DNA of 64,000 nucleotides from Candidatus Polarisedimenticolaceae bacterium (GTDB lineage Bacteria > Acidobacteriota > Polarisedimenticolia > Polarisedimenticolales > DASRJG01), in assembly GCA_036275915.1 (NCBI GenBank), contig DASUCV010000020.1:1-64000 (forward strand), in the 5' to 3' direction. Of the stretch, positions 1 to 23,711 are shown piece by piece. The translations under genes and the position numbers were made by a program. Below the pieces are notes generated by a model. It was not told the DNA's origin. It ran no database searches and was given only the letters and a program-made list of their open reading frames with translations. How positions within the stretch are numbered: the first letter of the stretch is position 1; each line of letters opens with the position of its first letter.

Positions 1-2
1 CC

Positions 3-422
3 TACATCCAGGATCCGTCGTTCGATCCCTGCACAGACGACACCTACATCCAGGATCCGTCGTTCGAGCCCGGCACCGACGACACCTACATCCATGACCC
101 GTCGTTCGAGCCCGGCACTGAAGACACCTACATCCAGGATCCGTCGTTCGATCCCGGCACCGACGACACCTACATCCAGGACCCGTCGTTCGAGCCCGGT
201 ATCGACGACACCTACATCCAGGACCCGTCGCTCGAGCCCGGCACCGAAGACACCTACATCCAGGACCCGTCGCTCGATCCCGGTATCGACGACTCCTACA
301 TCCAGGACCCGTCGCTCGATCTCGGCACCGAGGACTCCTACATCCAGGACCCGTCGCTCGATCCCGGCACCGACGACTCCTACATCCAGGACCCGTCGTT
401 CGAGCCAGGTATCGATGACAAC
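3..422 (+). repeat. 42-bp tandem repeat array, ten units
   Basis: Ten head-to-tail 42-bp units start at 3, 45, 87, 129, 171, 213, 255, 297, 339 and 381, each coding TYIQDPS(F/L)(E/D)PG(T/I)(D/E)D. Units differ mostly by single substitutions such as F/L, E/D and T/I. The array may continue upstream of the window. Confidence 0.9.
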
Positions 423-923
423 TACCACGACGACGCGTATGACCCGACCGCTGAAGGCTCCTACTACGATTCGCATCCCTTTGTTGGAGAGGACCCCAGC
501 GGCAACGAGCCCTCGTTCGATGAGCCGAGCTTCGACAACGGCGGCAACGAGCCTTCGTTCGATGAGCCGAGCTTTGACAGCGGCGGCGACGAGCCCTCGT
601 TCGATGAGCCGAGCTTCGACAACGGCGGCAACGAGCCCTTGTTCGACGAGCCGAGCTTCGACGGCGGCGGCGACGAGCCCTCGTTCGAAGAGCCGAGCTT
701 CGACAGCGGCGGCGACGAGCCCTCGTTCGAAGAGCCGAGCTTCGACAGCGGCGGCGACGAGCCCTCGTTCGAAGAGCCGAGCTTCGACGGCGGAGGTCAT
801 GACTCGGGGTCCGAGTTTGACGGTGGCAGCTTTGACAGCGGTGACTCCGGTGCTGGGGATTCCAATCCCGACGGCGCTGAGGCTTTCGACTCTGGGCCTG
901 ACTCTGACGGTGGAATCAACTAA
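3..923 (+). CDS. Acidic tandem-repeat protein, C-terminal part (5' end outside window)
   Basis: The frame beginning at base 3 is open to the TAA ending at 923, so about 306 C-terminal residues are visible and the start lies upstream of the window. Residues 1-140 of this part are ten copies of a 14-residue unit (TYIQDPSFEPGTDD-like). A unique linker follows, then seven copies of a second 14-residue unit (NEPSFDEPSFDNGG-like) and an Asp/Gly/Ser-rich tail ending GGIN. The protein is strongly acidic with almost no basic residues. No family was recognised. The composition resembles secreted or surface linker proteins that may bind cations, but that is inference. A strong terminator follows 44 bp downstream. 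An alternative frame from 94 gives an Arg/Ser/Thr-rich product that is an artefact of the repeat. Confidence 0.8.
   Translation, partial: YIQDPSFDPCTDDTYIQDPSFEPGTDDTYIHDPSFEPGTEDTYIQDPSFDPGTDDTYIQDPSFEPGIDDTYIQDPSLEPGTEDTYIQDPSLDPGIDDSYIQDPSLDLGTEDSYIQDPSLDPGTDDSYIQDPSFEPGIDDNYHDDAYDPTAEGSYYDSHPFVGEDPSGNEPSFDEPSFDNGGNEPSFDEPSFDSGGDEPSFDEPSFDNGGNEPLFDEPSFDGGGDEPSFEEPSFDSGGDEPSFEEPSFDSGGDEPSFEEPSFDGGGHDSGSEFDGGSFDSGDSGAGDSNPDGAEAFDSGPDSDGGIN
504..797 (+). repeat. 42-bp tandem repeat array, seven units of a second type
   Basis: Seven 42-bp units start at 504, 546, 588, 630, 672, 714 and 756, coding (N/D)EPSF(D/E)EPSFD(N/S/G)GG. The unit length equals that of the first array and both share an xPSF(D/E)xG core, so the second may be a diverged form of the first. 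The last three units use EEPSF and are nearly identical, suggesting recent duplication. Confidence 0.88.
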
Positions 924-1029: not shown

Positions 1030-4000
1030 TCACGGGCTGCCGATCAATACAAACGCGCCCCAGAATTGTGGAGAATGGTAGTTTGCCGTCGCGCGCACTT
1101 TCCGCTTCGCCTCCCACAAAGCATCCGCGAAACCAGTCGAAGTTGTGGGCCGATCTCCTGTCGGAACACTATCGAAGAGCGCCGTAATGACTTGCCGTGC
1201 GGCGGAATCGTCCACCGCCCACAGGGTCGAGACAACCCGACGCGCTCCTGCGATCAGGAATCCCCGAGAAAGTGATACAGCGCCCTCCAGGTTGATCTCT
1301 TCACCGGTATGAGTGCCGCAGGCGGCGAGAACCACGAGCTCGGCAGGAATACGCAAGGAGTAAACCTCGTGCAGTTCGAGTAGACCATCTGCCTCTGAGG
1401 CGACCGTCCCTGCCGGTAGTTTCAATACCAACGCGGCCCGTAGTCCATCGGATCCCGTCGACCCGATCGCGTGGGTAGCGAAGTGAACGAGCCTGGCGCG
1501 ACCTATGTCGGCTCGCACCTCTTGCTCCGTTGCCGTATCGTCATGGAGTAGCACAAGCCGACATCCGGGCTGTCGCCTCTGGATCGCGGCGGCGATGCTC
1601 TCTTGCTCGGGAATCGAGTTGCTCAATGCGGGGAGTCGGAAGGCCTGTTCGAGCGTTCCGTCTCGTTCACCGTCGACCCCACGAGCACCATTGACATCAG
1701 TGGGCGGCCCTGGACTTGAACCGCCGACGTTAGCGATCCGATTCACGACGCCCGCGACGGAGAGAAGTTCCAAGTCGGTCGTCCCGTGCGTCTCTTTTCC
1801 GTAGAACGAGAACGAGATCGACGGTGCGATCGTGATCACCGGCCCGTCATCAAGCCAGTATTTCGTCGACTCCTCAGTCGAGTCGACGGTGACAACGAGT
1901 GCATCCATCGGAACTTGATTCAATTGCGCATCAGGGATAACCGTCACGTGTCCGGCCTTGTGGATACGCGCCCACACCGGCTCGGGAACAAGCGCCCGCC
2001 AAAGTGCGTGCAACCACTGGTCGTTTGGAAAACCGTTTCCCTCGCAGCTTGACGCCAGTCTCGCTCCTCGTGGAGACGGCACGTCGTACTTCGCGCGGAA
2101 CCGGCAATCAAAAAGTCGTCCTAGCGATTTCGACGTCAACGGCCCGGACGATACCCCCAGCAGCTTGGCGGTGGATTCGTCCAGATTCAGACTGAATGCT
2201 TGCACTTCAGCACCCTGGGCCGACACAACGAACACCCGGGACGCTTCGACTCCGATTTGGAAGTACAGGATGTCGTTCGCGAACGCCTTCATGGCTTGGC
2301 GCAATTCATCCGTATTCGAGGTCAGGTGATCGATGGAGGCCATGACTTCCCGATATCGCGGATCGACCCGCCGGATCTCCCCGTTCGCGCGTCGATATTC
2401 CGAAAGTGCGATGGCGACTGCGTGCGCCGCATCATCCGAATCGTGCTCAGCCTGCAAGTCGCCGGCTAGCGCTCGTTCCATCAAGCTGCGCTCGAACGCT
2501 TGCGCCTTGCGGAGTGTTGCCTCCGCGACTCGTCGACGGTCGACCAAGTCTTGAGCGACCCCTGTCGAGGGATCGCTCAGTTGCGTCTTAGAAAACGCGA
2601 CTTCCTCAACCAAAGTCCGTGCTCGTGTGCGCTCTGCCCACCTCAGAGCCTCATTCGGATGTCCGGCAGCGATCTGCCGCGTAACCATGGTGTCGAACCT
2701 GGGAGCGTACCGCGCGAGGAAGGTCGCGCGAGTGGTGTCCGCCGCGCTACTCTCCTGCCGCATCGACTCGACGGAGCCGAGCGCTGCGCTGAGCACAACC
2801 AAGGATTCCTCGCGCTCATGAGCGGCCCACAGGACGTCCGATTTCTCGAACTGTGCCTTCGCGGCCGCTTCGCGCCACTCGGAGTGAAGGTTCACCTTCG
2901 CAAGTGCGTCATCTATTGTTTTCAGCGCTTCTGGAAGCTGTCGGATTGCCAGCTGCGCTCGAGATACTTCGATCAAGCTTTCGGCGACGTCGACGCTCTT
3001 CGGCGCAATCGCCGTTCGAATCTCCAAGGCCCGCCGGAGCAACGGAAGCGCGTCCCGCGGCTGGCCCTCGTCGATGAGTACGGTCGCGAGATCGTGGAGT
3101 GCTCGAGCAGTCTCAGAATGCTCTTTCCCGAGTCCCGTTTCTCGTATGGAGAGGGCCTCGCGCAGCAGCGTCTCCGCCTCGACATACTGAGAGTCTTCGG
3201 CCAAGAAGATGGCGAGCTGCGCGAGATACACAGAGAGCTTCGGATCTGTGCTATCTGGAGCCACATACAATGAGCGGGCCTCTTCCGCACACGCTCGGTA
3301 TTTCGCTTCGGCGTCTGCCCGTCGCCCTTGGAATCGAGCCAGCTCGGCCAGGTTGAAGGTGGCGGTAAGGATGCCCTCTTGGTCCTTGAGAGCTTGGCGT
3401 TCCGAAAACGACTCAATCTCGTACCTCTCGGCGTCTGCATAGCTCCCTTCGTCACGAAACGTTCCCGCCACGGAATTGAGCAACCACGCGTGCACCGGCG
3501 TGTGCTTCGGTGCAATGGCCAAGCCCTTGTTGAACTCGGCCCGGGCGGGGACCGAACCATCCGTCAAACGAGTGAGCTCGCCCGACGTCAGATATCCAAC
3601 CGCCTTGTCGGTGGGACTCGCATCAGACGATTGGAGATATCGCTGCCGATCGGTGACGATTGGGCGAGCTTCATCGTAGCGGCCCATCGCCCCGAGGATC
3701 TGTGCGATTCCCTCGAGCGTCGCACCCATCGCTGCGTCACGCTCGGTCTCGGGCTGTAGTTTTCGGTGCTCCAACGAGCGCTGTCCATACTTGAGAGCTT
3801 CGTCGAAGCGATTCCAGTTGAAACAGATACTCGAGAGATTGTCGAGACTGTCTGCGACGGAGGCGTGGTCCAATGGGCGCAGCTTTTCCCATTCTTCTAG
3901 TCCATGCCTTAGCACCTCAAGAGTCGTCGCCCTGAACTCTGGTTTCTCCGAGTTGTAGAGAAGGAGTCCAAGGTGATCTATGAAACGAGCGATGGACGGC

Positions 4001-4509
4001 GCATCATCAGGAAAGCATCGGCGGGCGCTTGCCTCGGCATCCTGGAGCATCTGAAGGGCTGTCTCGTTCCCGTCCTTCAGTGCGGATCGGATGCGATCGG
4101 TGAGTTGCGCAGCCTCCCAGCACGCTTGATCGCGCGGCGAAGCTGCGTAGGCGCTAGTTGCACCCACCGCCCGTGAAGGTGTGTCGGGCCCATCTTTGAT
4201 CTCCAGCGTCCAGACGCCGGGAGGATCCGCGAGCCAGGTGAATGTCACCGACTTCGCGAGCCATTCATCGCCTCTCTCTACGTGTCGAATCGCACCGGTT
4301 GGGTCTGTGAGTGTGATCGTCGCCGAGCCGTCGATCGTCGTCGCAACCCGGGCAGCTTGCCCGGCTTGGAGGTCACATCGCGGGTCGGAGGTTCGCCCTC
4401 CTACTCTCGGGCTTCCGCATCCGACGCACGCCACGACGAGTACTAGTGAATGAGATAAGAATTTCAACTGCGAATCCCAGCCGCGGGAACCTGAAGCACC
4501 CACCGACAT
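1030..4509 (-). CDS. TPR-CHAT caspase-like protease, probable lipoprotein
   Basis: 1159 aa. The N-terminus has a hydrophobic stretch (LVLVVACVGC) with Cys residues placed like a lipobox, suggesting envelope anchoring. Residues roughly 150-600 are tetratricopeptide repeats, for example the segments around SVADSLDNLSSICFNW and ETARALHDLATVLIDEG. The C-terminal third is a CHAT domain: strand-His motif VHFATHA (His near residue 1012) and strand-Cys motif VVLAACGTHTGE (Cys near 1064), followed by GFLIAGARRVVSTLW. These are the His/Cys dyad motifs of clan CD proteases. TPR-CHAT proteins typically cleave a partner after sensing a signal through the TPRs. Divergent from the secreted protein at 4647 and near a sigma/anti-sigma pair and two other proteases. 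Substrate unknown. Confidence 0.9.
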   Translation of the reverse strand: MSVGASGSRGWDSQLKFLSHSLVLVVACVGCGSPRVGGRTSDPRCDLQAGQAARVATTIDGSATITLTDPTGAIRHVERGDEWLAKSVTFTWLADPPGVWTLEIKDGPDTPSRAVGATSAYAASPRDQACWEAAQLTDRIRSALKDGNETALQMLQDAEASARRCFPDDAPSIARFIDHLGLLLYNSEKPEFRATTLEVLRHGLEEWEKLRPLDHASVADSLDNLSSICFNWNRFDEALKYGQRSLEHRKLQPETERDAAMGATLEGIAQILGAMGRYDEARPIVTDRQRYLQSSDASPTDKAVGYLTSGELTRLTDGSVPARAEFNKGLAIAPKHTPVHAWLLNSVAGTFRDEGSYADAERYEIESFSERQALKDQEGILTATFNLAELARFQGRRADAEAKYRACAEEARSLYVAPDSTDPKLSVYLAQLAIFLAEDSQYVEAETLLREALSIRETGLGKEHSETARALHDLATVLIDEGQPRDALPLLRRALEIRTAIAPKSVDVAESLIEVSRAQLAIRQLPEALKTIDDALAKVNLHSEWREAAAKAQFEKSDVLWAAHEREESLVVLSAALGSVESMRQESSAADTTRATFLARYAPRFDTMVTRQIAAGHPNEALRWAERTRARTLVEEVAFSKTQLSDPSTGVAQDLVDRRRVAEATLRKAQAFERSLMERALAGDLQAEHDSDDAAHAVAIALSEYRRANGEIRRVDPRYREVMASIDHLTSNTDELRQAMKAFANDILYFQIGVEASRVFVVSAQGAEVQAFSLNLDESTAKLLGVSSGPLTSKSLGRLFDCRFRAKYDVPSPRGARLASSCEGNGFPNDQWLHALWRALVPEPVWARIHKAGHVTVIPDAQLNQVPMDALVVTVDSTEESTKYWLDDGPVITIAPSISFSFYGKETHGTTDLELLSVAGVVNRIANVGGSSPGPPTDVNGARGVDGERDGTLEQAFRLPALSNSIPEQESIAAAIQRRQPGCRLVLLHDDTATEQEVRADIGRARLVHFATHAIGSTGSDGLRAALVLKLPAGTVASEADGLLELHEVYSLRIPAELVVLAACGTHTGEEINLEGAVSLSRGFLIAGARRVVSTLWAVDDSAARQVITALFDSVPTGDRPTTSTGFADALWEAKRKVRATANYHSPQFWGAFVLIGSP

Positions 4510-4546
4510 GCCCGCTTCCAGTCCCGAACTCTGATGGTGACGGTCG

Positions 4547-4597
4547 TTGACGACTCGACTTGCTGAGAACTATGCGGTTGCCTGTCACCGATGTCAA
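4547..4597. promoter_or_regulatory. Overlapping divergent promoter candidates between the CHAT and secreted-protein genes
   Basis: Minus strand: TTGACA (4597-4592), 17-bp spacer, CATAGT (4574-4569), which would start the CHAT transcript about 53 nt before its ATG. Plus strand: TTGACG (4547-4552), 18-bp spacer, TATGCG (4571-4576), leading toward 4647. The -10 boxes overlap, so the two directions would compete. The plus-strand -10 is weak. Confidence 0.35.
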
Positions 4598-4646
4598 CGG
4601 TACTGTTGTTGCAGCTTACGCAATCCGCTACGACGTTGGGGGGTCT

Positions 4647-6407
4647 ATGCGACATCGAATGATTGGGGCGACCATCGTCTTATTCTTGGCGCCATTTGTC
4701 TTGACCGCGTTTGCGGCGCCTGTCACCAAAAAACTCGATCGGCTGTTCCCGGTTGCGTCATGCCCGTTTCCAAGGCCCGATTGCGCCGAAACGTCCTTGA
4801 TTTGTCCGGACTACTGCGCCACTAATCCCGCAACACCCCTTTGTACGGACGCGAACAGCAACGGCGCGTGCTGCGAGCAGCCGTATGGGGAGTCCTCACC
4901 GGAGCACTGCGGGCTCAATGTTAGTCATGAGACTTCCGACCTGCAATTCGGGGTGCCCGCTGTAGGGGGCAATTACGGCGGGCCTGTCGCGATTACAATC
5001 CGTCGCACCGGGGACACCCAGCCGAGCGCGATCCGCGAGATTTCTTATTTGGCATTTATCGCCCAATCTCCCTACCTTGACAATCAGCCGACCCAATCAA
5101 GACTCGACGACTATCTCGGCAATGGAAATTACTGCGCCGCGAGTGATTCGTCCTGCGACGACTGCAAGCGCGAGAGCCCGCAGGACTGCTATCAGGGCGA
5201 TGGTCGGCCGACGGTCTTCTTTCCGGTCCGTTCGATTACCAGCGGCGAATTTGGATTCGAAGAACCGTTCAATGTGGCCCCGGACAACTCGCGACCCGAA
5301 TGCTACCGATCTGATTCTGTCGGGAGACGACACGGGACGTGGGTGCTTGGCGGCGGTGCGTCAATCGCGATTGATGAATTCCCGAGTTACCCACTGCGCT
5401 TGGGTTCAAGTAGTGACAATACCGGTGCGACGGCAACGCTCGTTGTGCCATTTGTACCAAGCGGGTTGTATGAGCTCTACGGAATCTGGTTCAGCAGTAC
5501 GAACGGTCAGAATGCAGTCACGTTTGAAGTCGCGACCGGAGACGACGAGCGCGTTTTCGATGAGGACGGGGACGGAGTGCCCAATGAGTGCGACAACTGC
5601 CCTTCGGTCCCCAACGGAGACTGCGACGCGTCCACCGCGGCTTGCGATATCAACGGGGACGGGATACTCAGCGCCGACGAGATAAGCAAGGGGAACCAAG
5701 CCGACACCGACGGAGATGGGAGAGGAGACGCATGCCCGGATTCGACACCTCCTACCAGTTCGGCAAGCGTGACGCCGGATCCTAATGCCGCCGGTTGGAA
5801 TAACACCGATGCGGTGGTGACGATCACGGCGGTGGACGAAACCGGCGGCTCAGGAGTCGCCTCGATCTCCGTCGAGACCTCCGGTGCGCAGGTCGTCCCC
5901 CTGACGGTAACCCCCGGCGCAAGCGCGATGGTGACGACAAGCGCCGAGGGCACGACCAACGTCAAGTTCTGGGCCACCGACAATGCCGGCAACACTGAGG
6001 CACCGCAGACACTGCCGGTAATGGTGGACAAGTCGGCGCCTCAGGTTACGTGCTCCGTGAATCCATCGTTCCTCTGGCCGCCGAACCATCGACTCGTGGA
6101 CGTCGTTGCAAGCGTGTCGGTCATCGATGCGCTCTCCGGGCCGGACAATTTCGTGCTCGATTCGGTTCTCGGTGACGAACCTGACAAGTCAAAGAACGGA
6201 GTGGACATCGCCAATGATATTCAAGGCTTCGTACTGCACACCGGGGACACCACCGGCAAGTTGCGTGCGGAATGCCTCGGGACGGGCGATGGCAGGACAT
6301 ATAAGTTGATTTATCACGGTCTCGACCACGCGGGGAACAGCAGCCAGTGCGAGGCAATCGTCGTGGTCCCCCATGACCAGCGGCGGGGAGCTTCCGGAGT
6401 CCACTAG
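4647..6407 (+). CDS. Secreted calcium-repeat / Ig-like protein
   Basis: 586 aa from the ATG at 4647, chosen because it follows a G-rich Shine-Dalgarno-like run and begins a clear signal peptide (MRHRMIGATIVLFLAPFVLT, cleavage near AFA). The mature N-terminus is Cys-rich (about residues 30-90). Residues about 305-365 hold thrombospondin type 3 / dockerin-like Ca-binding motifs (DEDGDGVPNECDNC, DINGDGILSADE, DTDGDGRGDAC). These are followed by an Ig-like module (about 365-460, with DETGGSG and DNAGNTE) and a C-terminal beta-rich domain ending GASGVH. It is probably an extracellular or surface protein. It is divergent from the CHAT gene and its end overlaps or abuts the sigma-like gene. No catalytic motif was seen. 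Confidence 0.75.
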   Translation: MRHRMIGATIVLFLAPFVLTAFAAPVTKKLDRLFPVASCPFPRPDCAETSLICPDYCATNPATPLCTDANSNGACCEQPYGESSPEHCGLNVSHETSDLQFGVPAVGGNYGGPVAITIRRTGDTQPSAIREISYLAFIAQSPYLDNQPTQSRLDDYLGNGNYCAASDSSCDDCKRESPQDCYQGDGRPTVFFPVRSITSGEFGFEEPFNVAPDNSRPECYRSDSVGRRHGTWVLGGGASIAIDEFPSYPLRLGSSSDNTGATATLVVPFVPSGLYELYGIWFSSTNGQNAVTFEVATGDDERVFDEDGDGVPNECDNCPSVPNGDCDASTAACDINGDGILSADEISKGNQADTDGDGRGDACPDSTPPTSSASVTPDPNAAGWNNTDAVVTITAVDETGGSGVASISVETSGAQVVPLTVTPGASAMVTTSAEGTTNVKFWATDNAGNTEAPQTLPVMVDKSAPQVTCSVNPSFLWPPNHRLVDVVASVSVIDALSGPDNFVLDSVLGDEPDKSKNGVDIANDIQGFVLHTGDTTGKLRAECLGTGDGRTYKLIYHGLDHAGNSSQCEAIVVVPHDQRRGASGVH

Positions 6408-7395
6408 AGGGGCGACATTGTCTCGGGAATCTGACTCGCGAATAGACCCAACTAAGTCGTCGATCCATGACTACGCGCTGTTACGGCTGATCGAGGGGCA
6501 GGACGATGCACTGCCTGCGCACTTTCCGGGGCGCAATCGGATCGTCGACAACTTTCGGCGGATCCAGGACACGATCAAGACCGTCGTCGAACGAACCGTC
6601 GAACGAAATCGCTACACGCGTTTCGTAGCAAGTCGGCTCGCGGTTCACGCCCCAGATTTTGTTGCGGAACATCCCGCCGAGTTCGAGAACGAGATCGAAG
6701 GAAAGCTGAGTGAACACGTCGAGCGCATAGGAGGTCAGGAGCGGAACAAACAAGTACTACGAAATTTTGCTCTCTGGTACCGACTCGCGAGCGTCATGGG
6801 TAGCGCGCAGAATCGGGCAATTCCAGGAGCTCTCGCCGTTGTGACGAAGGACTTTGAGGAGGTCTCTCGCTTCCTCAATCCGGAACGTCCGGAGTTTCGT
6901 CGCTTGTTGGGGGAACGTCAAGGCGTTGACCCAAGTAGCGTTGCGGAGCGTGTCGAAGACAATCTGTTGGCGCACTGGCAGGCCTATGAGGGCACGGCAC
7001 CACTCGGAGCTTACATACGCACGATCGTCACAAGACGGAAGCAGGAACTGCTGCGAGGTCTTGGAGAAGGCGTCCTCGATCACGACAGCATCGAAGCTGT
7101 ATTCGAATTGCCTGCGGAGGGAGAGGACCCCGTCGAGCTCCTCGATCGGCCATCCGCTCGTGAGATGGCGCTTCGGGTGAAGGCCGTGGTCTCCGCCGTC
7201 GAGAAGTTCGACGAGGTGGACAAGTTGATCTTCTTCGCGCGGATGGAAGACCCACCGCTGCCCTACAAGTTGATCCTGGACCGTTTAGGAACGATTCCAG
7301 CGAACAACATGAAGAGGGAGAGCGCTGTTCGTGCTCGTCACACCCGACTGGTCGCAGAGCTTCGACAGGCTTACGAGTCCACGCTGAGACGCTAG
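6373..7395 (+). CDS. Divergent ECF-like sigma factor
   Basis: Up to 340 aa. The ATG at 6373 overlaps the upstream gene by 35 bp; a TTG at 6418, just behind AGAGGGG, is an equally plausible start. Residues about 190-235 resemble sigma-70 region 2 (NLLAHWQAYEG, then PLGAYIRTIVTRRKQELLRG). Residues about 275-335 resemble region 4 (FDEVDKLIFFARM, then a helix-turn-helix around LILDRLGTIPANNMKRESAV). The roughly 190 N-terminal residues are not recognised. The role would be recruiting RNA polymerase to alternative promoters. It is tail-to-tail (4-bp overlap) with a zinc-finger anti-sigma-like gene, which supports the call. Sequence similarity to classical ECFs is low, so the assignment rests on pattern and context. 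Confidence 0.62.
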   Translation: MTSGGELPESTRGATLSRESDSRIDPTKSSIHDYALLRLIEGQDDALPAHFPGRNRIVDNFRRIQDTIKTVVERTVERNRYTRFVASRLAVHAPDFVAEHPAEFENEIEGKLSEHVERIGGQERNKQVLRNFALWYRLASVMGSAQNRAIPGALAVVTKDFEEVSRFLNPERPEFRRLLGERQGVDPSSVAERVEDNLLAHWQAYEGTAPLGAYIRTIVTRRKQELLRGLGEGVLDHDSIEAVFELPAEGEDPVELLDRPSAREMALRVKAVVSAVEKFDEVDKLIFFARMEDPPLPYKLILDRLGTIPANNMKRESAVRARHTRLVAELRQAYESTLRR

Positions 7396-8288
7396 TCGTC
7401 GGAGGTTCGCGGAGCCGACGGGCCGATCTGAATTTTAAGGCTGTCGATTGCGGTCCCATCCGAAAGTTTGACATCGAGCGCGACGATTACGCCTTTCGCA
7501 ACATCACTGGCCGAGATCGTTCCGCGAATCGGTGCGATCTTGACCAATCCGAACTCCAGTGGCGGCCCGAAGAGTGTGTTGCCATCGATCACTGCTCCTG
7601 TATCCCTTAGTACAGCTTCGACGTGCGCGCCGGGGGTTGCGAGTGAGGTCAGGAATTGCAACGCGCGGTCACTGCCACCGAGGCCGATCGATATCGTCGT
7701 GACGCGCCTGCCGTGGAGTTCGACTTGTGCCCAACCTGCCGGCTCCGTTCCGCCCTTGCCCGAATCGCCGCTGACGGCATTCACAGGCATTAGGACTGAC
7801 GAAGACGACGAAGCGCCGAATCGGTACATCGTAGGAATCAGAATTGCGATCAAGAGCAAGTAGGCTGCTGCTGTCAGCCAGTTTCGCCGGATTGCCAGCA
7901 CGTCGAACACAACCCAACTCGACTTGGACGAGGACGCAGGTATGACATCGACCGCAGGGGCCTCGGCGATCCAGGACCGAAGCTGACTAAGGAGCGACGA
8001 ACACTCGGTACAAGTGTCCGCATGTAACTTCCATGCGTCCAAGCCCTCCGGCGCGAATGATCCCCAATCGCCCGCTAGGGCAACGAGGACTTCGGGTCGA
8101 GGATGGGCGGTCACCGCATTCGACGGGCGAGTTCGGAGTTCGTGCTTCACCAGGTCGACACGTCGGGCGAATCGGGCGCAGTTGGCGCAGTTCTCGACAT
8201 GCGTCGCGGTCTCCCGTGATTGCAGATCCTCGTCGTCATCCGATTGGAGGAGCAGCCGAGCCTGAACTCTCGTACAAGCGATCGGCAA
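7392..8288 (-). CDS. Transmembrane anti-sigma-like protein with two zinc-finger motifs
   Basis: 298 aa. The start is TTG at 8288, fixed by an AAGGAGG Shine-Dalgarno about 5 nt upstream. There are two HxxxCxxC zinc-binding motifs of the zf-HC2 anti-sigma type, H30-C34-C37 and H89-C93-C96. A single membrane helix spans about 137-155 (NWLTAAAYLLLIAILIPTMY), and a roughly 140-residue C-terminal domain is probably outside the cytoplasm. Zf-HC2 proteins hold ECF sigma factors inactive until proteolysed or conformationally changed. Two fingers in one protein is unusual. The gene is last in a minus-strand run behind the trypsin and caspase genes and is convergent with the sigma-like gene. Confidence 0.75.
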   Translation of the reverse strand: MPIACTRVQARLLLQSDDDEDLQSRETATHVENCANCARFARRVDLVKHELRTRPSNAVTAHPRPEVLVALAGDWGSFAPEGLDAWKLHADTCTECSSLLSQLRSWIAEAPAVDVIPASSSKSSWVVFDVLAIRRNWLTAAAYLLLIAILIPTMYRFGASSSSSVLMPVNAVSGDSGKGGTEPAGWAQVELHGRRVTTISIGLGGSDRALQFLTSLATPGAHVEAVLRDTGAVIDGNTLFGPPLEFGLVKIAPIRGTISASDVAKGVIVALDVKLSDGTAIDSLKIQIGPSAPRTSDD

Positions 8289-8387
8289 GTTCGCCTCCTT
8301 TCGCGAGACTCGGCTCGACCGAGCCGCCGAGCCCCCTCAAACTAGGGACGCGACGTCGGAACGGTCGCTGCGAGAGGATCCCTGAGA

Positions 8388-10649
8388 TTATTCAACTTTG
8401 AACGATAGTCTCCGGGCTACCCACTCGCCCAGCTGAGATTCGTGGGCTCCCGGAGGCCGTGAAAACCGTCGGACAGCCTCGGGCTCGCCCCGACGAGGTA
8501 ATTCGCAGGCTTTCTTGAAGCTCTCTTGCCCGGCCTCCAGCGCGCGCACCTCTTCCATGAGGCTCAGGAGTCGCATGGGGTTGGTGTCCGCCACAACCAT
8601 GATCGAGTCCGTGCCTCCGGTACGGGAAACCAGGAACGGAATCGACATCGGCGCGGACCATCGGCTAGGGATCCGAACCGTCGCGCCGTCGCTTGACTCC
8701 AGCTCGTGAGTCGCCGAAGGATCCCATAGCTCTATTGACGGGCCCCCGCGGGCAGATGCGATATCCAACACATGCACGATGGCGACGTAGCTTCCGCGTT
8801 GTGCGTCGATCTGCAGATTCAAGTCAGCACAGTCGTCTGTCTGTCCAGGCTTGCACCGGACTCCAGTAATGACTCTCCTGCGCGAATCCAAGAGTCGGGC
8901 GTCGAGATTGAACGAGCCATCACCCCGGAGATCGAGCAGTTGCCGAACTTCCGCGCCGTGCAGCTCGGAGTAGGAAGCGATTGCAATCTTCTGCACGACG
9001 TCGCCGATTAGCTCCGGCTTCAAGTCGGAAGCGTTTGGCGGAATCGCGGAATCGAGGAGCTTCCGGCTAGTCGTTCCTCCTACAACTCCGAAGCGAAGTG
9101 AGCGCGATGATGAAGCGTCGACACTGAGTCGAAAATACCGCTCGGGATGAGGACCGAACTTCGCCATCTCATCGTCAGCGGGTCGGCCGTCCCTGAATAC
9201 GATCGCTGGGTGATCTGACACAAGCCGGTTGACGAGCTGCACCGCCATGTTCGAGGGGAATCCGTCCACGTAGACGATCGGACGATCATACTCGAAGGGG
9301 ATATTGCAGCGGACCGCAACTACGTCGGTCCTGTCAGCAATAGGATCTGTCGCGATACCGGTCACCTTCGTCGAGTCAGGCCATCGATATCGAACCGACT
9401 GCTGGTCACGGACGCCGACCAGTGCGAGGCGGGAGGAAAAGGCATCCCGCATTCGAGCCCGCCGTACGAGCACGTATGAGTCGAGCGGACTCACAGGCAC
9501 CGACGCTGGGACCTCTATCGTCCACTGGTTTCCAATCTCGAGATGGGCGGCCATCGCAAGTCGTGGATCGACATCACGATCCGTGAAAAGGAACGGCTCG
9601 TTTTCACGCCCCGCTTGCGCGCTGAACCCGGGTTGCATCTTCCGAAAAGAGCGCTCTGCGACCTCCGATCGAACACGCTCGAAAAGGAGCGAGATCGGGG
9701 CGCCTTGATCCAATCGCTCTGCCTCGCTCCAGAGCACGTAAGAAAATAATCCGCGCGGCACGGAGTCGAACAACTGTTCGTAGGCGGTCGATCCACCCTC
9801 ATCCGTACCGCCTCGATGGACGTTCGACACGGCCGACAGGACGACGTAGCGGGCATCGGAAGGCAGGATTCGCCTGCCCGGCGAGCTCGCGTCGTGTCCC
9901 GCGTGGTCCATCGCTTTCTTTTCCGCCAGCACGCGTGCCCGGTCCGGAGTGTCTCGATTGAAAGTCATGTCCGCATGGCTCGTGTAGAGTTGCGTACGCG
10001 CATCGAGTTCCGGAACGACTCGCTCCTTGAGATCGACGCCACGGCCGCGAGGAAGCGATGCCGAGTGGCACGCATCGAAGATCAACAGGACATTCCGAGC
10101 GTCCGGACTCAGTCGATCGAACCACAAGAACAGCTCGTCATCCACGATGTCCGGGATGTTCTCTGTTCGTGCGTCGTACGGCAGAAGACTTGCGTCGTTG
10201 CCACCGCCCTCATCGCCGTTAATATCTGGAGCCTCCCCGCCATGGCCGCTCCAGAAAACGACAAGCGTATCCTCCCGACGAGTCGCTTCGACGGAAGCGA
10301 GGATTGCATCACGAATGCGCTTTCGCGTTGGGAGGTGGTCTTCGGAACCGAGCGGATCGCCGCTTACAAGCACCGTGATGTCATCAAAGTGGTACTTCGA
10401 TCGCAATAAGGTTTCGAGCGACCTGACATCGTGTGGCGGGCCCGCGAGAGGCTCGATGTCTCTACTCAGATATGAGCCGACCCCGATCAGGACGGCCCGC
10501 CGTATCCCCTTGTGAAATGCTGGTGTCGGCTCCTTCGGCGCGGGCCGTGATGCGCTCGCCACGATGATGGCGAAGCCGACTAAGACGATCCCCAATGCGG
10601 ATCGCATGCTCCAGACCACCCCACGATTCATTTCGCGTTTGAGAGCCAA
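8388..10649 (-). CDS. Exported caspase-family (C14) protease
   Basis: 753 aa. An N-terminal hydrophobic segment (about residues 13-33, SMRSALGIVLVGFAIIVASA) suggests export or membrane anchoring. The peptidase C14 domain spans about 48-340, with the catalytic His in FWSGHGG (H136) and Cys in LIFDACHSAS (C194). DDIT and DGRP-containing segments are typical of bacterial metacaspase-like proteins. The C-terminal 400 residues are beta-rich and unassigned. The start overlaps the end of the trypsin-like gene by 22 bp, indicating one operon, and the anti-sigma-like gene follows after 99 bp. Family members cleave after Arg/Lys or Asp; the target here is unknown. Confidence 0.87.
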   Translation of the reverse strand: MALKREMNRGVVWSMRSALGIVLVGFAIIVASASRPAPKEPTPAFHKGIRRAVLIGVGSYLSRDIEPLAGPPHDVRSLETLLRSKYHFDDITVLVSGDPLGSEDHLPTRKRIRDAILASVEATRREDTLVVFWSGHGGEAPDINGDEGGGNDASLLPYDARTENIPDIVDDELFLWFDRLSPDARNVLLIFDACHSASLPRGRGVDLKERVVPELDARTQLYTSHADMTFNRDTPDRARVLAEKKAMDHAGHDASSPGRRILPSDARYVVLSAVSNVHRGGTDEGGSTAYEQLFDSVPRGLFSYVLWSEAERLDQGAPISLLFERVRSEVAERSFRKMQPGFSAQAGRENEPFLFTDRDVDPRLAMAAHLEIGNQWTIEVPASVPVSPLDSYVLVRRARMRDAFSSRLALVGVRDQQSVRYRWPDSTKVTGIATDPIADRTDVVAVRCNIPFEYDRPIVYVDGFPSNMAVQLVNRLVSDHPAIVFRDGRPADDEMAKFGPHPERYFRLSVDASSSRSLRFGVVGGTTSRKLLDSAIPPNASDLKPELIGDVVQKIAIASYSELHGAEVRQLLDLRGDGSFNLDARLLDSRRRVITGVRCKPGQTDDCADLNLQIDAQRGSYVAIVHVLDIASARGGPSIELWDPSATHELESSDGATVRIPSRWSAPMSIPFLVSRTGGTDSIMVVADTNPMRLLSLMEEVRALEAGQESFKKACELPRRGEPEAVRRFSRPPGAHESQLGEWVARRLSFKVE

Positions 10650-11914
10650 TAGTCGATCGTTCCATCGCCATCCACGTCGAGGCCACGCTTGTCGATTACT
10701 CCGTCCTCGTCCTCGTCGAAGACGTAGAAATTGGGTGGCCCTGAGCCAGCGAGGTTTATCGCGAGGCCATCGGCGACGCCGTTGTGATTGGAGTCAAGAA
10801 TCCAAAAGTCGACCTCATCGTCGGAGTCGACGTCAACCGCGTACGCATCGTTGATACCGTCATTATTGATGTCTACTTCTTGGAACCGAGAGTCCGGCGG
10901 CAGTTCCTTGCCAAGGAGCTTGGAGGCGTTCTTCGGTAGCGCTGGAGACTTCGGTGCTACATATGTCGGCGGATGTTTGACGATCTCGTCGATCTCGCTC
11001 ACCGCAATTGCCATGTTGAGTCCTTGAACCACAGCCTGTTTCCCTCCGGACTCGGCGAACGCGACGAGCCCAATCACCTGCCCATCGCCGTTGAAGAGTG
11101 GGCCGCCTGAATTGCCCGAGCTGATAGGTGTCTGAGTCTGGATCACGCTTGCCTTCAGGTCGACCGACGGCGATTGGAAGTATCCGGACACCTCGAACTC
11201 TGGCCGGATCTGGCTCACAATTCCTTGCGAGAGACTCCATGGGTAACCGAGCGGATGTCCGATCGCAAAGACGTCGTCACCTACTCGCACTGCCTTGAGG
11301 CTTCCGAGGGGCACCGGCTGCACGTTGAGCGCAGTCGCCGGCACCCTCAGCAATGCCAAGTCCGCAGAGGGCTTGGCTGCGATGACGTGCGCCACGAATA
11401 TGTCTGCGTGTTCAGCGGGTTGCATCTCGCTTGAGCGGGTCAGAATGCATGCTGTGGGCTGGTTTTCCACCACGTGATAATTCGTGGCGATGAGCCCTGA
11501 CTTGTCGATGACAACGCCGGCTCCCTCACCGTCAGGCGTCATGATGCGCACCACGCTGTCTGCACGCTTCTTGTAGACGCTGACCGCACCAGGCGACTTC
11601 CCAACGCTCGGGTTCTTCGATCCGCCTTGTTGACCTCCTTGCGACAGGGCCTCCGCGCAACGGCTGTAAGTGATTGCTGAGCGCTCATCCAGGTTCTGGA
11701 CGAGACGTGGGTAGCTGCTTCTTAGTGTCGGCGAAATTCCATTGATAGGGTGCCAAGTCGGCTTCTGTCCGCCGCGGCTCGCCTTGACGGTCGCAACAAG
11801 CGCAGCCGGTACGTTTGTGACCCCATTCCCATTCGAAGGCGTGGCGGCGGGAGATGAAGTGGTCGCTCTGACGAGCAACAGGCATGCGACAAGAGTGGCG
11901 ACTTTAGGTTCCAT
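10628..11914 (-). CDS. Exported S1C trypsin-like (HtrA/DegP-like) protease with C-terminal Ca-repeat tail
   Basis: 428 aa. A Shine-Dalgarno (GGAGGT) precedes the ATG and the N-terminus is a short signal peptide (LVACLLLVRATTSS). The chymotrypsin-fold domain (about 110-310) has all three catalytic residues: H147 in ATNYHVV, D185 in SADLALL and S269 in SSGNSGGP. There is no PDZ domain, unlike classical DegP. Residues about 345-428 carry Asp-rich EF-hand/TSP3-like motifs (DINNDGINDAY, DSDDEVDF, DEDEDGVIDKRG, DVDGDGTIDYW), suggesting Ca-dependent stability or localisation. It is the first gene of the run trypsin - caspase - anti-sigma-like. Confidence 0.88.
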   Translation of the reverse strand: MEPKVATLVACLLLVRATTSSPAATPSNGNGVTNVPAALVATVKASRGGQKPTWHPINGISPTLRSSYPRLVQNLDERSAITYSRCAEALSQGGQQGGSKNPSVGKSPGAVSVYKKRADSVVRIMTPDGEGAGVVIDKSGLIATNYHVVENQPTACILTRSSEMQPAEHADIFVAHVIAAKPSADLALLRVPATALNVQPVPLGSLKAVRVGDDVFAIGHPLGYPWSLSQGIVSQIRPEFEVSGYFQSPSVDLKASVIQTQTPISSGNSGGPLFNGDGQVIGLVAFAESGGKQAVVQGLNMAIAVSEIDEIVKHPPTYVAPKSPALPKNASKLLGKELPPDSRFQEVDINNDGINDAYAVDVDSDDEVDFWILDSNHNGVADGLAINLAGSGPPNFYVFDEDEDGVIDKRGLDVDGDGTIDYWLSNAK

Positions 11915-12241: not shown

Positions 12242-13447
12242 ATGCGCTTCGCCTTGCCTGCCGCCCTGATCGCCGGCGCCGCGCTGCTCGCCATCGCCAC
12301 GCCTGCCGAGGCGCGCTCGAAGCCCAGCCACGACCCCGACAAGGCGAAGATCGTCACCTCCGACCTTCCCAACTTCGTGCGCGCGTTCGCGCTCGCCTCG
12401 GCCCACGACGCGCCCGCGGAGAAGGAGAAGATCTTCCAGCGCGAGTACCTCGACAAGGGAACGCCCGGTCTCAAGGACTTCGTCAGAGAGCGGATCCAGT
12501 CGGCGAAGAACCTCGCCGCCGCGACGGCGAAGAGGCCGAACTACTACGCATCGCTCGAGCAGGCCGTGCCGCAGGTCGCGGCAATGGAGCCGGCAATTCG
12601 CAAGAGCCTGCGCAAGCTGAAGGACCTCTACCCCGGCGCCGTCTTCCCCGACGTGTACATCCTCATCGGCGTCATGAACTCCGGCGGCACCGTCTCGGAC
12701 GCCGGCCTCCTCATCGGGCTCGACATGCACGCGAAGACGGAAGGCACCGACATGTCCGAGATGAGCGATTGGCTGAAGGCTGTCCTCGGCCCGCTCGACG
12801 CGCTCCCCGGCATCGTCGCGCACGAGCTGATGCACTACCAGCAGGGGCCGGAGGGCAAAACGCTCCTCGCGAAGGCGTGCAGCGAGGGGTTCGCGGACTT
12901 CGTCGGCGAGCTGATCTCAGGCCAGAACATCAACGCCCACCTGCGCGCCTACGGCGACGCCCACGAGGCGGAGCTGTGGCGCGAGTTCCGCGCCGAGATG
13001 AACGGCACCGACTTCTCGCACTGGCTCTATCAAGGAAGCAGCGCCACCGGCGACAGGCCTGCGGACCTCGGCTACTACGTCGGCTACCGCATCGCCGCGG
13101 CGTACTACGCGAAGTCCTCAGACAAGAAGAAGGCCGTGCGGGAGATCCTCACCGTGACGGATTACGAGAGATTGCTGCGGGAGAGTGGGTACGGGGAAGG
13201 GGCTCATCCCAACAGCAGCTCGAGATCTTCGCGCGTGAGCGTGCGCAGCACCGACTCGTCCGCGGCCAGTATCGAGTCGGCGAGCGCGCGCTTGTGTTCC
13301 TGCAGCGCGATGATCTTCTCCTCGACGGTGTCGCGAGCGACCAGCCGATACGCGATGACCGGCTTGTCCTGGCCGATGCGGTGCGCGCGGTCGATGGCCT
13401 GCGCCTCGACCGCGGGGTTCCACCACGGATCCAGAAGGAAGACGTAA
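12242..13447 (+). CDS. Exported zinc metallopeptidase (DUF2268-like) with read-through C-terminus
   Basis: 401 aa as it stands. A signal peptide (MRFALPAALIAGAALLAIAT, cleavage near AEA) is followed by a domain with a zinc motif AHELMHYQQ (H194, E195, H198) and a downstream acidic ligand candidate in CSEGFADF (E215), the pattern of predicted Zn proteases of the DUF2268 type. Recognisable protein ends near residue 321 (RESGYGEG). The last 80 or so residues (Ser/Arg-rich) are encoded antisense to the SNF2 gene, a convergent overlap of 244 bp. The natural stop appears to be lost, or a frame error is present. A good GGGAGGA ribosome site precedes the ATG. Confidence 0.72.
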   Translation: MRFALPAALIAGAALLAIATPAEARSKPSHDPDKAKIVTSDLPNFVRAFALASAHDAPAEKEKIFQREYLDKGTPGLKDFVRERIQSAKNLAAATAKRPNYYASLEQAVPQVAAMEPAIRKSLRKLKDLYPGAVFPDVYILIGVMNSGGTVSDAGLLIGLDMHAKTEGTDMSEMSDWLKAVLGPLDALPGIVAHELMHYQQGPEGKTLLAKACSEGFADFVGELISGQNINAHLRAYGDAHEAELWREFRAEMNGTDFSHWLYQGSSATGDRPADLGYYVGYRIAAAYYAKSSDKKKAVREILTVTDYERLLRESGYGEGAHPNSSSRSSRVSVRSTDSSAASIESASARLCSCSAMIFSSTVSRATSRYAMTGLSWPMRCARSMACASTAGFHHGSRRKT

Positions 13448-19852: not shown

Positions 19853-21784
19853 ATGCGCCTTTACTCCGGGCTCTCCACCGACTTCATACGTGACGCCGCG
19901 CACAATCGAATCGCCGCGAAGCTGAAGGACGCATACTTCCGGGAATTCCGTCACAACCCGCCTCCGTCCGAGGTCAACTCCTGGCAGAACTCTCTTCGGG
20001 CAATGTCACAGGTCGTCGACCTTGCGGGTTTGCATGACCACGGCGTCCTCCTCGAGTACCAGTTGCCCATGACGAGCAAGCGATTGGACTGCATGGTCTG
20101 CGGCCAGAATGGTGAGCGCCGCGATCAAGCGGTCATCGTTGAGCTCAAGCAGTGGCAGGCCTGCGGAGACGCCGGTGTCGAAAACCTCGTTACCGCGTTT
20201 GTGGGTGGGCGCGAGCGTGACGTACTGCATCCGGCAGCCCAAGTAAATCAATACGAGCGCTACCTCGAGGACAGTCATACCGCGTTCTATGAGGGGACAG
20301 CGCCGGTAGGCCTGGCGTCGTGCGCCTACCTGCACAACTACTACGCTACCGATGGTGACACGCTGTTTACCGATCGATTCGCGTCGATTCTGTCGCGCTC
20401 GCCGGTATTCACGGCCGACGACGTCGATCCGCTGCAGGAGTTCCTTCGAGTCCGCCTCTCCTCCGGCCACGGTGAGCCGGTGCTGCGACGGGTCGAACAG
20501 AGCAAGTACCGCCCAAGCAAGAAGCTTCTGGAGCATGTCGGAAAGCTCGTCAAGGGGCATCCGACCTACGTCTTGATCGATGAGCAGTTGGTGGCGTACG
20601 AACGTGTGCTGGCCACCGCGCGTGCTGGGTTCGACGCTCGAAAGAAAGAGGTCATCATCATCCGGGGCGGCCCCGGCACGGGAAAGTCGGTAATAGCGAT
20701 GAACCTCCTCGGAGACCTTTCAGCGGCGGGATTGAACGCTCACTACGCCACCGGGTCGAAGGCGTTTACCGAAACACTTCGCAAGGTGATCGGTAGTCGC
20801 GGCAGTGAGCAGTTCAAGTATTTCAACAGTTACGCTAACGCCGATGTGAACGCAATCGACGTACTAATCTGCGACGAAGCGCACCGCGTTCGGGAGACGA
20901 GCAACAGCCGTTACACGAAGAAGACCGAGCGCTCGACGAAGCCACAAGTGCGCGAGCTGTTCGACGCCGCTAAGGTCAGCGTGTTCTTCGTAGATGACAA
21001 ACAGAGCGTGAGGCCCGGCGAAATCGGCACGACCGATTACTTGCGAAAACAGGCGTCCGACTGCGGATGCGAAGTTCGCGAGTACACACTGGAAGCGCAG
21101 TTCCGTTGTGCCGGGTCGGATGCTTTCGTGAACTGGATCAACAATACGCTTGGAATCGAGCGGACCGCGAACGTCATCTGGGAGGGAGATGAACGGTTCG
21201 ACTTTCGCCTCTTCGAGTCTCCGGGATCCCTCGACGAAGAGATCCGCCGAAAAGCAGCAACGGGAGTAACGGCGCGTTTGACCGCTGGGTTTTGCTGGCC
21301 ATGGTCCACTCCCAACACCGACGGTACACTCGTAGAAGATGTTGTGATCGGAAATTTCCGGCGGCCGTGGAATGCACGACCGGATGCTGGCAAGCTCGCC
21401 CGCGGGATTCCGAACGCAAACTTGTGGGCTTACGATTCGGGGGGGATCGATCAAGTCGGCTGCGTGTACACGGCGCAGGGCTTTGAGTTCGACTTCGTCG
21501 GTGTGATCGTTGGGAACGATCTACGCTACGACCCCGACACTGGCGATTGGATCGCCGATCGCACCCAGTCGCACGACCGAAAGGTCAAAGCAGGCAAGCA
21601 TCGATTCGCGGAATTCATTAAGAACACCTACCGGGTATTGCTGTCACGTGGGCTGCGCGGATGCTACGTCCACTTCATGGACAAGGAAACCGAACGATTC
21701 GTGCGGAGTCGAGTGGAATGGAAGAGTGGACCTGCTCTCAACGTCGCCGCCGAGTCAAAGAATAGCTCAGACCCGGGGACTTGA
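19853..21784 (+). CDS. PD-(D/E)XK-like nuclease / DUF2075 helicase fusion, copy A
   Basis: 643 aa. The N-terminal 120 residues fit a PD-(D/E)XK nuclease core: E69 in LEYQLP, D79 in KRLDCMV and the E97-L-K99 motif in VIVELKQW. A P-loop NTPase of the DUF2075 / Schlafen group 3-like superfamily 1 type follows, with Walker A GGPGTGKS (272-279), Walker B LICDEAH (338-344), then a Q/R-containing LEAQFRCAGSD and a C-terminal YRVLLSRGLRG motif. It would be a DNA- or RNA-directed helicase-nuclease. The next gene is a paralogue starting 4 bp after this stop. Base composition is visibly lower in GC than the S41 gene upstream, suggesting acquisition. A role in defence is inferred. Confidence 0.82.
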   Translation: MRLYSGLSTDFIRDAAHNRIAAKLKDAYFREFRHNPPPSEVNSWQNSLRAMSQVVDLAGLHDHGVLLEYQLPMTSKRLDCMVCGQNGERRDQAVIVELKQWQACGDAGVENLVTAFVGGRERDVLHPAAQVNQYERYLEDSHTAFYEGTAPVGLASCAYLHNYYATDGDTLFTDRFASILSRSPVFTADDVDPLQEFLRVRLSSGHGEPVLRRVEQSKYRPSKKLLEHVGKLVKGHPTYVLIDEQLVAYERVLATARAGFDARKKEVIIIRGGPGTGKSVIAMNLLGDLSAAGLNAHYATGSKAFTETLRKVIGSRGSEQFKYFNSYANADVNAIDVLICDEAHRVRETSNSRYTKKTERSTKPQVRELFDAAKVSVFFVDDKQSVRPGEIGTTDYLRKQASDCGCEVREYTLEAQFRCAGSDAFVNWINNTLGIERTANVIWEGDERFDFRLFESPGSLDEEIRRKAATGVTARLTAGFCWPWSTPNTDGTLVEDVVIGNFRRPWNARPDAGKLARGIPNANLWAYDSGGIDQVGCVYTAQGFEFDFVGVIVGNDLRYDPDTGDWIADRTQSHDRKVKAGKHRFAEFIKNTYRVLLSRGLRGCYVHFMDKETERFVRSRVEWKSGPALNVAAESKNSSDPGT

Positions 21785-21788
21785 TTCG

Positions 21789-23711
21789 ATGGCATCCGAT
21801 GACTCACTTTCACCACATGGGTGGCATTCTAATTTCCCGGAATTCGAGAAAGCCTCCCCACGTGTCATCAGAGCGCGGCTGAGCGAATTCATCATCGATG
21901 CCAACCCCCAGCAGGTGGGCGCTTGGGACGATTCCATCCCAAAGCTTCAGACCGAAGTCCGCGAGGTGATGACCGATGAGCCCGATGCGGACCTCTATAC
22001 CGCCATCCTGGAGTACCAGTTGCCGTTGGAGTCTCGCCGGGCAGATGTCATCCTGCTCGTTCGGGGCGCGGTCGTAGTTCTTGAGTTGAAAGGCAAGACG
22101 AGCGCTAGTCAAGCGGATATTGATCAAGCGGCGGCGTACTCACGAGATCTCAGCAATTATCACCGCGCGTGCTCGGGACGCGCTGTTCACGCTGTTGTCG
22201 TACCCACGGCAGCACGCGGCGAACTCGGCGTTCGTTCAGGCGTGCACATTGTCGGACCTGATGCTCTTGACAGGCTCGTCCGCAGACTCCAGCCACCGTG
22301 GCCGCGCGACATTGTGGAGGCTCAGGCATTTCTGGGCTATGACGCATATCGGCCGCTTCCGACGCTCGTGCGAGCGGCGCGAGAACTGTTTGCCTCCGGC
22401 GCACTTCGTCGCATCGAGCGAGCAAGCGCGAACACTGCGCCGGCCATTGACGAGGTGACTCGGATCATCCGCGAGGCTGCGGCGACACGCAGCAGACGCC
22501 TTGTCTTGGTAACTGGCGTACCGGGTTCCGGGAAAACGCTCGTGGGACTGCGAATTGTCCATGCGCATTTCCTCGATGATCTCGCGATCGCGCGCGCGGG
22601 TGAACGACCCTCGGCACCGGCGGTATTCCTTTCCGGAAACGGGCCACTGGTCGAGGTATTGCAATACGAGCTTCGCGGCGCCGGTGGCGGTGGGAAAACA
22701 TTCGTGCGAGGCGTGAAGGACTACGTGAAGCAGTACTCTCGTGGAACGAGCAGGATTCCACCAGAACACGTCCTTGTTTTTGACGAAGCCCAACGAGCTT
22801 GGGATCGAGAGCGCGTAGAGGAAAAGCATGAGCAGGGAGGCGCGGCCGGCAGGTCCGAGCCAGAGCATTTCATTGAGTTCGCCTCACGTATTCCGGATTG
22901 GTGTGTTGTTGTCGGGCTCATTGGAAGCGGTCAGGAAATCAATGTGGGTGAGGAAGGCGGATTGATTCAGTGGAGACAGGCTATCGAAGGTGCGCCAAAC
23001 CCGTGCGAATGGCAGGTTCACGGCCCCGGCGACGCATTGAACGACTTTGGTGGCTCAGCCATTCGCAGTGAGACGAACTCCGGACTCCGGCTTAATGTTG
23101 GAGTTCGCTATCACCTCGCCAAAGACGTCGACGCGCTAGTCGAGTGTGTCCTTGCGGGCGATTCCGCTGGTGCAAACGCGTTGGCGCTGAGGCTTGACGG
23201 CACTTACAGCCCAAGAATTACCCGGAACTTGAGTATCGCGCGAAAGTACCTCCGAGATCGATATGCGAACGATTCCGAAGCGCGATTCGGACTTGTTGCG
23301 TCGGCTCGCGACAAGGATCTCGTCGGATTCGGTATCCCTAATGATTTCGCGTCGACAAGAATCCGTTACGGTCCTTGGTACTCGGATGGCGATGACGGTC
23401 CGTATTCTTGCCGTCACTTTCGTGAGCTCGTTACGGAGTTCGGAGCGCAGGGATTGGAGCTCGACGCCACATTACTTGCTTGGGGAACAGACCTCATTCG
23501 CGTCGACGGAGAGTGGTCGACGAAGAGAGCACGAGGTTACAAACGGGGCGTGCACGTCCGCAACCCGCATCAGCTTCGTCTGAACGCCTACCGAGTCCTT
23601 CTCACTCGCGGGCGTGACGGTACGGTCATTTTTGTCCCACCTCTTCTCGAGTTGGACGACACCGCGGATTTCCTCTCCGCGTGCGGATTCGTCTCGCTCG
23701 AAAATCGGTAA
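21789..23711 (+). CDS. PD-(D/E)XK-like nuclease / DUF2075 helicase fusion, copy B
   Basis: 640 aa from the ATG at 21789, 4 bp after copy A. It has the same architecture: nuclease core with E75 in LEYQLP, D86 in RRADVIL and E99-L-K101 in VVLELKGK; Walker A GVPGSGKT (243-250); Walker B VLVFDEAQR; arginine motif near NVGVRYHL; and C-terminal YRVLLTRGRDG. The EYQLPxxSxR segment is almost identical between A and B while the rest is highly diverged, so this is an old duplication kept as a pair rather than a recent one. A heterodimeric or two-strand function is possible (inference). Lower GC, as for copy A. Confidence 0.82.
   Translation: MASDDSLSPHGWHSNFPEFEKASPRVIRARLSEFIIDANPQQVGAWDDSIPKLQTEVREVMTDEPDADLYTAILEYQLPLESRRADVILLVRGAVVVLELKGKTSASQADIDQAAAYSRDLSNYHRACSGRAVHAVVVPTAARGELGVRSGVHIVGPDALDRLVRRLQPPWPRDIVEAQAFLGYDAYRPLPTLVRAARELFASGALRRIERASANTAPAIDEVTRIIREAAATRSRRLVLVTGVPGSGKTLVGLRIVHAHFLDDLAIARAGERPSAPAVFLSGNGPLVEVLQYELRGAGGGGKTFVRGVKDYVKQYSRGTSRIPPEHVLVFDEAQRAWDRERVEEKHEQGGAAGRSEPEHFIEFASRIPDWCVVVGLIGSGQEINVGEEGGLIQWRQAIEGAPNPCEWQVHGPGDALNDFGGSAIRSETNSGLRLNVGVRYHLAKDVDALVECVLAGDSAGANALALRLDGTYSPRITRNLSIARKYLRDRYANDSEARFGLVASARDKDLVGFGIPNDFASTRIRYGPWYSDGDDGPYSCRHFRELVTEFGAQGLELDATLLAWGTDLIRVDGEWSTKRARGYKRGVHVRNPHQLRLNAYRVLLTRGRDGTVIFVPPLLELDDTADFLSACGFVSLENR

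Follow-up and report, generated by a model that had tools for sequence, protein, structure and literature searches.

In type III-E clustered regularly interspaced short palindromic repeat (CRISPR) systems the TPR-CHAT protease Csx29 cleaves Csx30 and relieves the inhibition of the sigma factor CASP-sigma, an arrangement likened by the authors to the cutting of RseA by DegS (PMC10028731). Sigma factors of the extracytoplasmic function (ECF) group ECF54 adjoin genes for CHAT proteins and subtilases; proteolytic control has been proposed for them, and no anti-sigma factor has been described (PMC8999054). Here we describe a six-gene island at positions 1030-11914 of a 64,000-nucleotide stretch of DNA (the window), which is taken from the very start of a 205-kb contig (G000:C20) in the draft genome (4.5 Mb, 24 contigs) of a Candidatus Polarisedimenticolaceae bacterium. 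The island encodes, in this order, a TPR-CHAT protein (minus strand), a secreted Ca-repeat protein (plus), a sigma-like protein (plus), a zf-HC2-like membrane protein (minus), a caspase-like C14 protease (minus) and a trypsin-like S1C protease (minus). It is possible, if short of probable, that the six genes couple exported proteolysis to an ECF-type switch.

As in the Csx29-Csx30-CASP-sigma set, a TPR-CHAT protease is found beside a candidate sigma factor and a putative sigma inhibitor. In contrast to type III-E systems, neither CRISPR repeats nor Cas7-11 were seen at the locus, the CHAT protein is predicted to be exported whereas Csx29 is cytosolic, and a zf-HC2 membrane protein takes the place of Csx30 as putative inhibitor. 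CHAT domain, His/Cys dyad (HFATHA / LAACGT, read by eye) and TPRs are all present in the window protein, but it is not Csx29 (E 0.0024 and 16.8 bits with the Csx29 profile, the cut-off of which is 300). The earlier note on this DNA, made by reading the letters, had placed the module outside a CRISPR context, and indeed no CRISPR-like repeats occur in 1-20 kb, the contig ending 1 kb left of the CHAT gene and the rest of the genome being unsearched for Cas genes; Pfam and NCBIfam profile scans revealed no Cas7-11 or Csx30 among the six island products. The likeness to ECF54, as judged from neighbourhood descriptions, lies in an ECF sigma with CHAT and subtilase genes in its vicinity, and the difference in the zf-HC2 transmembrane (TM) protein, found in the window and often in the bacterial class. 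Like RpoE-RseA-DegS, the island would combine an ECF sigma with a single-TM anti-sigma and an S1C protease that is exported, but the S1C protease of the window bears a Ca-repeat tail, lacks a PDZ domain and is not DegS, and the genes for the putative sigma and anti-sigma are convergent. The C14 catalytic core, with its His/Cys dyad, is shared with bacterial metacaspases and orthocaspases; unlike these, the window caspase is long, exported, and encoded in one gene run with the S1C protease and the anti-sigma-like protein.

All open reading frames (ORFs) listed for the island in the earlier note were confirmed in position. Because the six genes agree in GC content at third codon positions (GC3, 0.65-0.69 in all) and the flanking genes differ (0.83 in the preceding ORF, 0.91 and 0.84 in the two genes that follow), the segment is taken as one compositional island. 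Its overall GC content (0.58-0.61, about 0.60) is lower than that measured beyond 12 kb (0.67-0.69), as had been noticed, and the six genes apparently make up a horizontally acquired island. The CHAT gene is divergent from the gene of the secreted protein, which overlaps the sigma-like gene by 35 bp. The genes for the S1C protease and the caspase share 22 bp. Two arrangements go unmentioned in the earlier note: the sigma-like and anti-sigma-like genes converge, with a 4-bp overlap, and the S1C-caspase-zf-HC2 series is the only gene run to include the anti-sigma-like gene; CHAT sits in a separate unit.

The 6373-7395 product is very probably a highly divergent ECF sigma factor, to judge from profile comparisons and a fold model. 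Pfam, NCBIfam and phmmer searches gave no match, and no Pfam sigma-70 region 2 or 4 was detected at E values up to 10. The earlier note had called the protein ECF-like and would have counted a failure of profile searches for regions 2 and 4 as refuting its proposal; taken as worded that has occurred, but profile-profile alignment and fold comparison both favour a sigma factor. A profile made of 22 sigma factors from this genome (collected via PF04542) and three CHAT-linked ones was aligned by hhalign to residues 142-335, regions 2 and 4 in order, with a score of 35.1 (P 8.8e-5). The maximum over 150 shuffles was 21.4, the best non-sigma protein reached 25.6, and among 200 neighbourhood proteins only sigma-like ones outscore 35.1. 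A second profile, including CHAT-linked ECF sigmas, gave an E value of 1.1e-5. Residues 141-340 were modelled from the single sequence with AlphaFold2 (AF2; predicted local distance difference test, pLDDT, 51.6; predicted template modelling score, pTM, 0.46). Nearly all the top 50 chains aligned to this low-confidence model by VIA-align are sigma factors, the best rows being AlgU (6in7_B, Z 6.3) and region 4 of E. coli sigmaE (2h27_D, Z 5.8, root mean square deviation 2.0 over 69 residues). Foldseek alone found nothing with E below 0.3 for the 200-residue model, and the single-sequence model of the full-length protein (pLDDT 41) is uninformative.

The neighbouring 7392-8288 product features two HxxxCxxC motifs (HVENCANC and HADTCTEC) and one TM helix, with the C-terminal domain predicted outside, in agreement with the membrane-bound double zinc finger first seen there. 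In a profile scan the only match was RsrA-like (E 0.0027), and PF13490 was not reached. Residues 21-108, in the cytosolic part with the zinc fingers, align by hhalign to a profile of 34 CHAT-linked anti-sigmas (probability 97.3, E 2.4e-11, score 76.4, shuffle maximum 21.3). The profile collects zf-HC2 membrane proteins whose genes immediately follow those of CHAT-linked sigmas; any anti-sigma of the zf-HC2 kind might match it equally. Four of the seven matches of the protein outside the window are beside CHAT genes (G135:C282, G243:C281, G012:C68, G135:C73). With the topology predicted, the outer domain would be accessible to an exported protease.

The three protease types of the island bear out their description, since catalytic motifs are intact in all (WSGHGG / DACHS in the caspase; NYHVV / SADLALL / GNSGGP, read by eye, in the S1C protease) and N-terminal export signals are visible. 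Such a signal is present also in the secreted protein, the Ca repeats of which were recovered by profile. The caspase has the features of the C14 family and matches metacaspase-1 in the PDB (4f6o, 4.4e-13). No PDZ domain was found in the S1C protease by Pfam or NCBIfam, all HtrA-family NCBIfam models remain below cut-off, and a search of the genome contigs retrieved only a weak relative. PADLOC recognized no known defence system, the matches being generic caspase and trypsin-like ones plus BovA at 0.0017, and the island carries no sequence signs of a suicide response. In another genome (L056:1819-3675, G071:C194) a small gene for a caspase-like product with a hydrophobic N-terminal stretch lies about 0.5 kb away from a gene for an ECF sigma.

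CHAT genes were surveyed throughout the class; nearly all those of the order are covered, the rest of the class was sampled by score, and the percentages are descriptive. CHAT genes were found in 35 of 41 class genomes, and a profile-detected ECF sigma lies within 5 kb of 62/84 of them (loci L042, L053, L093-L172). At 82 class loci, 53 sigmas reside within 2 kb of CHAT, as opposed to 2 in the 399 kb lying 4-8 kb off. In the complete genome G006, with PF04542 alone, 13 of 21 CHATs are sigma-linked (circular-shift mean 2.5, maximum 10 in 5000). A zf-HC2 membrane protein often accompanies the CHAT-near ECF sigma, and three further CHAT genes of the genome hosting the window have an adjacent ECF sigma (L093, L094, L095). 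In L053:6450-13277 (G006:C1, same order) genes for a sigma, a zf-HC2 TM protein, a TPR-CHAT protein and an S8 subtilase follow one another in one direction; as gene layouts go, this is a cleaner instance of the sigma/anti-sigma/protease idea than the window. The view that ECF/zf-HC2/TPR-CHAT neighbourhoods may be a CRISPR-free analogue of Csx29/Csx30/sigma, extending the ECF54 precedent, survives the comparison. Among open-access full texts none was found to connect CHAT with zf-HC2, and the combination of CHAT domain, ECF and anti-sigma occurs in the Craspase paper alone; apart from ECF54, no prior description of the CHAT/ECF sigma neighbourhoods of the class was found there. S8 subtilases next to CHAT recur in the class (L123, L153, L162, part of a 13-locus neighbour cluster). 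CHAT is found beside large TM proteins in L046, L047, L049 and L051; in L046 they comprise a DUF4384-bearing Ser/Thr kinase and another protein with DUF4384, and an ECF sigma is also nearby in L047 and L049.

The CHAT gene of the window is an exception to this class-wide linkage. Its conserved neighbour is of another kind: in L042, L098 (same family) and L169 CHAT adjoins a secreted protein which starts with K-x-[LIV]-D-R-x-F (KxLDRxFP) and has a GWW motif. The protein carries MopE-type metal-binding repeats in L042 and L169, and L043 has a shorter version. A profile of these partners hits only four places in the 41 class genomes, all beside CHAT genes; the four are the training rows of the profile, and only the absence of further matches is informative. 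In the window the corresponding slot is occupied by the Ca-repeat protein. KxLDRxFP and a degenerate PxGxYxxxGxW motif are placed in it as in L042, L098 and L169, and with a leave-one-out profile it ranks first of 251 (E 0.006), although hmmsearch does not list it. The motifs are suggestive of a possible divergent equivalent of the CHAT-clade partner. The catalytic dyad is kept in nearly all class CHATs inspected; a loss of catalytic residues in several sigma-linked CHATs was considered and rejected as mostly alignment error, since only L151 among 13 non-window rows seems dyad-less.

Table 1. Location of the island, its genes and predicted elements, and of the secreted partner family found at related CHAT loci.
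Feature	Location	Strand	Basis
Compositional island, all six genes	1030..11914	.	GC3 and GC contrast with flanks
Exported TPR-CHAT protein, 1159 aa, lipoprotein-like N-terminus	1030..4509	-	PF12770 1.9e-44, TPR_12 4.3e-26
Secreted Ca-repeat (TSP3) and OmpL47-type protein	4647..6407 (ATG at 4647)	+	TSP_3 1.3e-5, OmpL47-type domain 9.3e-15
Probable, very divergent ECF-like sigma, 340 aa, 140-aa N-terminal extension	6373..7395	+	hhalign to ECF profiles
Predicted sigma region 4-like domain (residues 261-339)	7153..7389	+	single-sequence AF2 model, VIA-align
zf-HC2-like single-TM anti-sigma-like protein, 298 aa, TTG start	7392..8288	-	hhalign, motifs
Predicted TM helix of the anti-sigma-like protein	7827..7883	-	Kyte-Doolittle window from residue 136
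Stretch bounded by the zinc-finger motifs HVENCANC and HADTCTEC	8001..8201	-	read from translation
Exported caspase/metacaspase-like C14 protease, 753 aa, signal peptide	8388..10649	-	PF00656 1.5e-15
Secreted trypsin-like S1C protease, signal peptide, Ca-repeat tail	10628..11914	-	PF13365 8.1e-32
CHAT-clade secreted partner family	L042:5832-8294, L098:4646-7048, L169:9028-11685, L043:7875-8753		KxLDRxFP and GWW motifs, partly metal-binding repeats

Three further features were recorded around the island. A strongly repetitive ORF (YIQDPSFDPGTDDT units) spans window positions 1-923 and runs off the contig start; its GC3 (0.83) is unlike that of the island. Just outside the other end, at 12242-13447, is encoded a secreted protein with a zinc-peptidase-like motif (AHELMHYQQG), and a second stretch of lower GC (0.58-0.60) extends from 20000 to 24000.

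If the six genes do form a switch, the zf-HC2 protein would hold the sigma factor at the membrane, and upon an envelope signal its outer domain would be cut by regulated proteolysis. Once free, the sigma would transcribe the island, and CHAT, its secreted neighbour, the S1C protease and the caspase would be made and exported. Regulated proteolysis is an established trigger for RseA-type anti-sigmas. The parts of this scheme are not equally credible. We lean slightly towards sigma and zf-HC2 protein being cognate, while transcription of the island genes by the sigma falls just short of an even prospect. The proteases are more likely outputs of the switch than its trigger; it is doubtful that the initial cut comes from any of the three exported ones, and very unlikely that it comes from CHAT. 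S1C and caspase are better candidates than CHAT because their genes run into that of the anti-sigma-like protein, and the CHAT clade is sigma-free; for this last reason, and because sigma-like and anti-sigma-like genes are convergent, cleavage of the window anti-sigma by CHAT is the weakest version of the idea.

Several observations weigh against a single coupled island. The window CHAT groups, at support 100/99, with L042 (same genome), L043, L166 and L169, none of which has a sigma. The usual, if not obligatory, place of an anti-sigma gene is directly behind the sigma gene and in the same orientation; the convergent pair of the window departs from this, and in 32 of 32 related sigma/zf-HC2 pairs the genes are co-directional with zf-HC2 downstream. 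The sigma-like protein has no relatives at E 1e-3 in 297 genomes of the phylum and stays below significance in hmmsearch with ECF profiles. Caspases occur in 4 of the 41 class genomes, and none outside the window is beside a detected sigma or CHAT. Expectations raised by the earlier note also failed: its five-gene set was not found in the other genomes searched, and the five genes as one conserved module were discarded on that account; no shared bipartite promoter motif upstream of island genes rises above shuffles (8 per pair). Its broader proposal, of proteases tied to a sigma switch, fares better in the class, where ECF/zf-HC2/TPR-CHAT neighbourhoods are strongly enriched, than in the window, with its sigma-free CHAT clade and convergent pair. 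A simple rival reading, tentative too and nearly as likely, is of two unrelated units sharing one island and not acting on each other: CHAT and the Ca-repeat protein as a sigma-independent pair and, having travelled along with it, S1C, caspase and zf-HC2 as a second gene run, to which the sigma may or may not belong. The CHAT clade, with its KxLDRxFP/GWW partner and the kinase or FecR-like genes which accompany CHAT at its loci, fits such a division; the foreign composition common to all six genes does not, and the window secreted protein matches the clade partner weakly when left out of the profile.

A more direct scheme, close to the original proposal, has exported CHAT, S1C or caspase cutting the anti-sigma outer domain and so starting transcription, as Craspase does. 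Topology fits, Csx29/Csx30 and DegS/RseA (PMC10028731) are precedents, ECF54 sigmas occur near CHAT and subtilase genes (PMC8999054), and nearly all class CHATs inspected keep their dyads. We nevertheless hold it unlikely: the CHAT clade lacks sigmas, the S1C protease lacks the PDZ domain used by DegS, and the window anti-sigma outer domain has no detectable match in CHAT-linked anti-sigmas. Improbable, too, is that the 6373-7395 product is some other helical protein, which would leave the zf-HC2 protein without a sigma partner here. The failure of Pfam, NCBIfam and phmmer, an hhalign probability of 60-82% and the low confidence of the models would agree with this, but the ordered region 2 and 4 match greatly exceeds the shuffles and outscores every non-sigma of the 200 proteins, and sigma factors dominate the VIA-align rows. 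Coupling of exported proteolysis to an ECF-type switch stays our preferred, if tentative, reading of the island. Its widest extension is distinctly improbable, namely that a CRISPR-free exported TPR-CHAT/ECF/zf-HC2 switch is widespread in the class, that type III-E Craspase was recruited from such a switch, and that the window holds an enlarged version of it, with three proteases and a sigma that has diverged strongly.

Craspase was introduced as a CRISPR system in which proteolysis sets a sigma factor free. If ECF sigma and anti-sigma factors are routinely coupled to exported TPR-CHAT proteins in the absence of CRISPR, such wiring may be older and general. The class would then offer dozens of natural gene sets in which CHAT can be tested as a cutter of anti-sigmas versus a sigma-controlled product, and the window would add a case in which genes for a caspase and a trypsin-like protease run into the anti-sigma gene.

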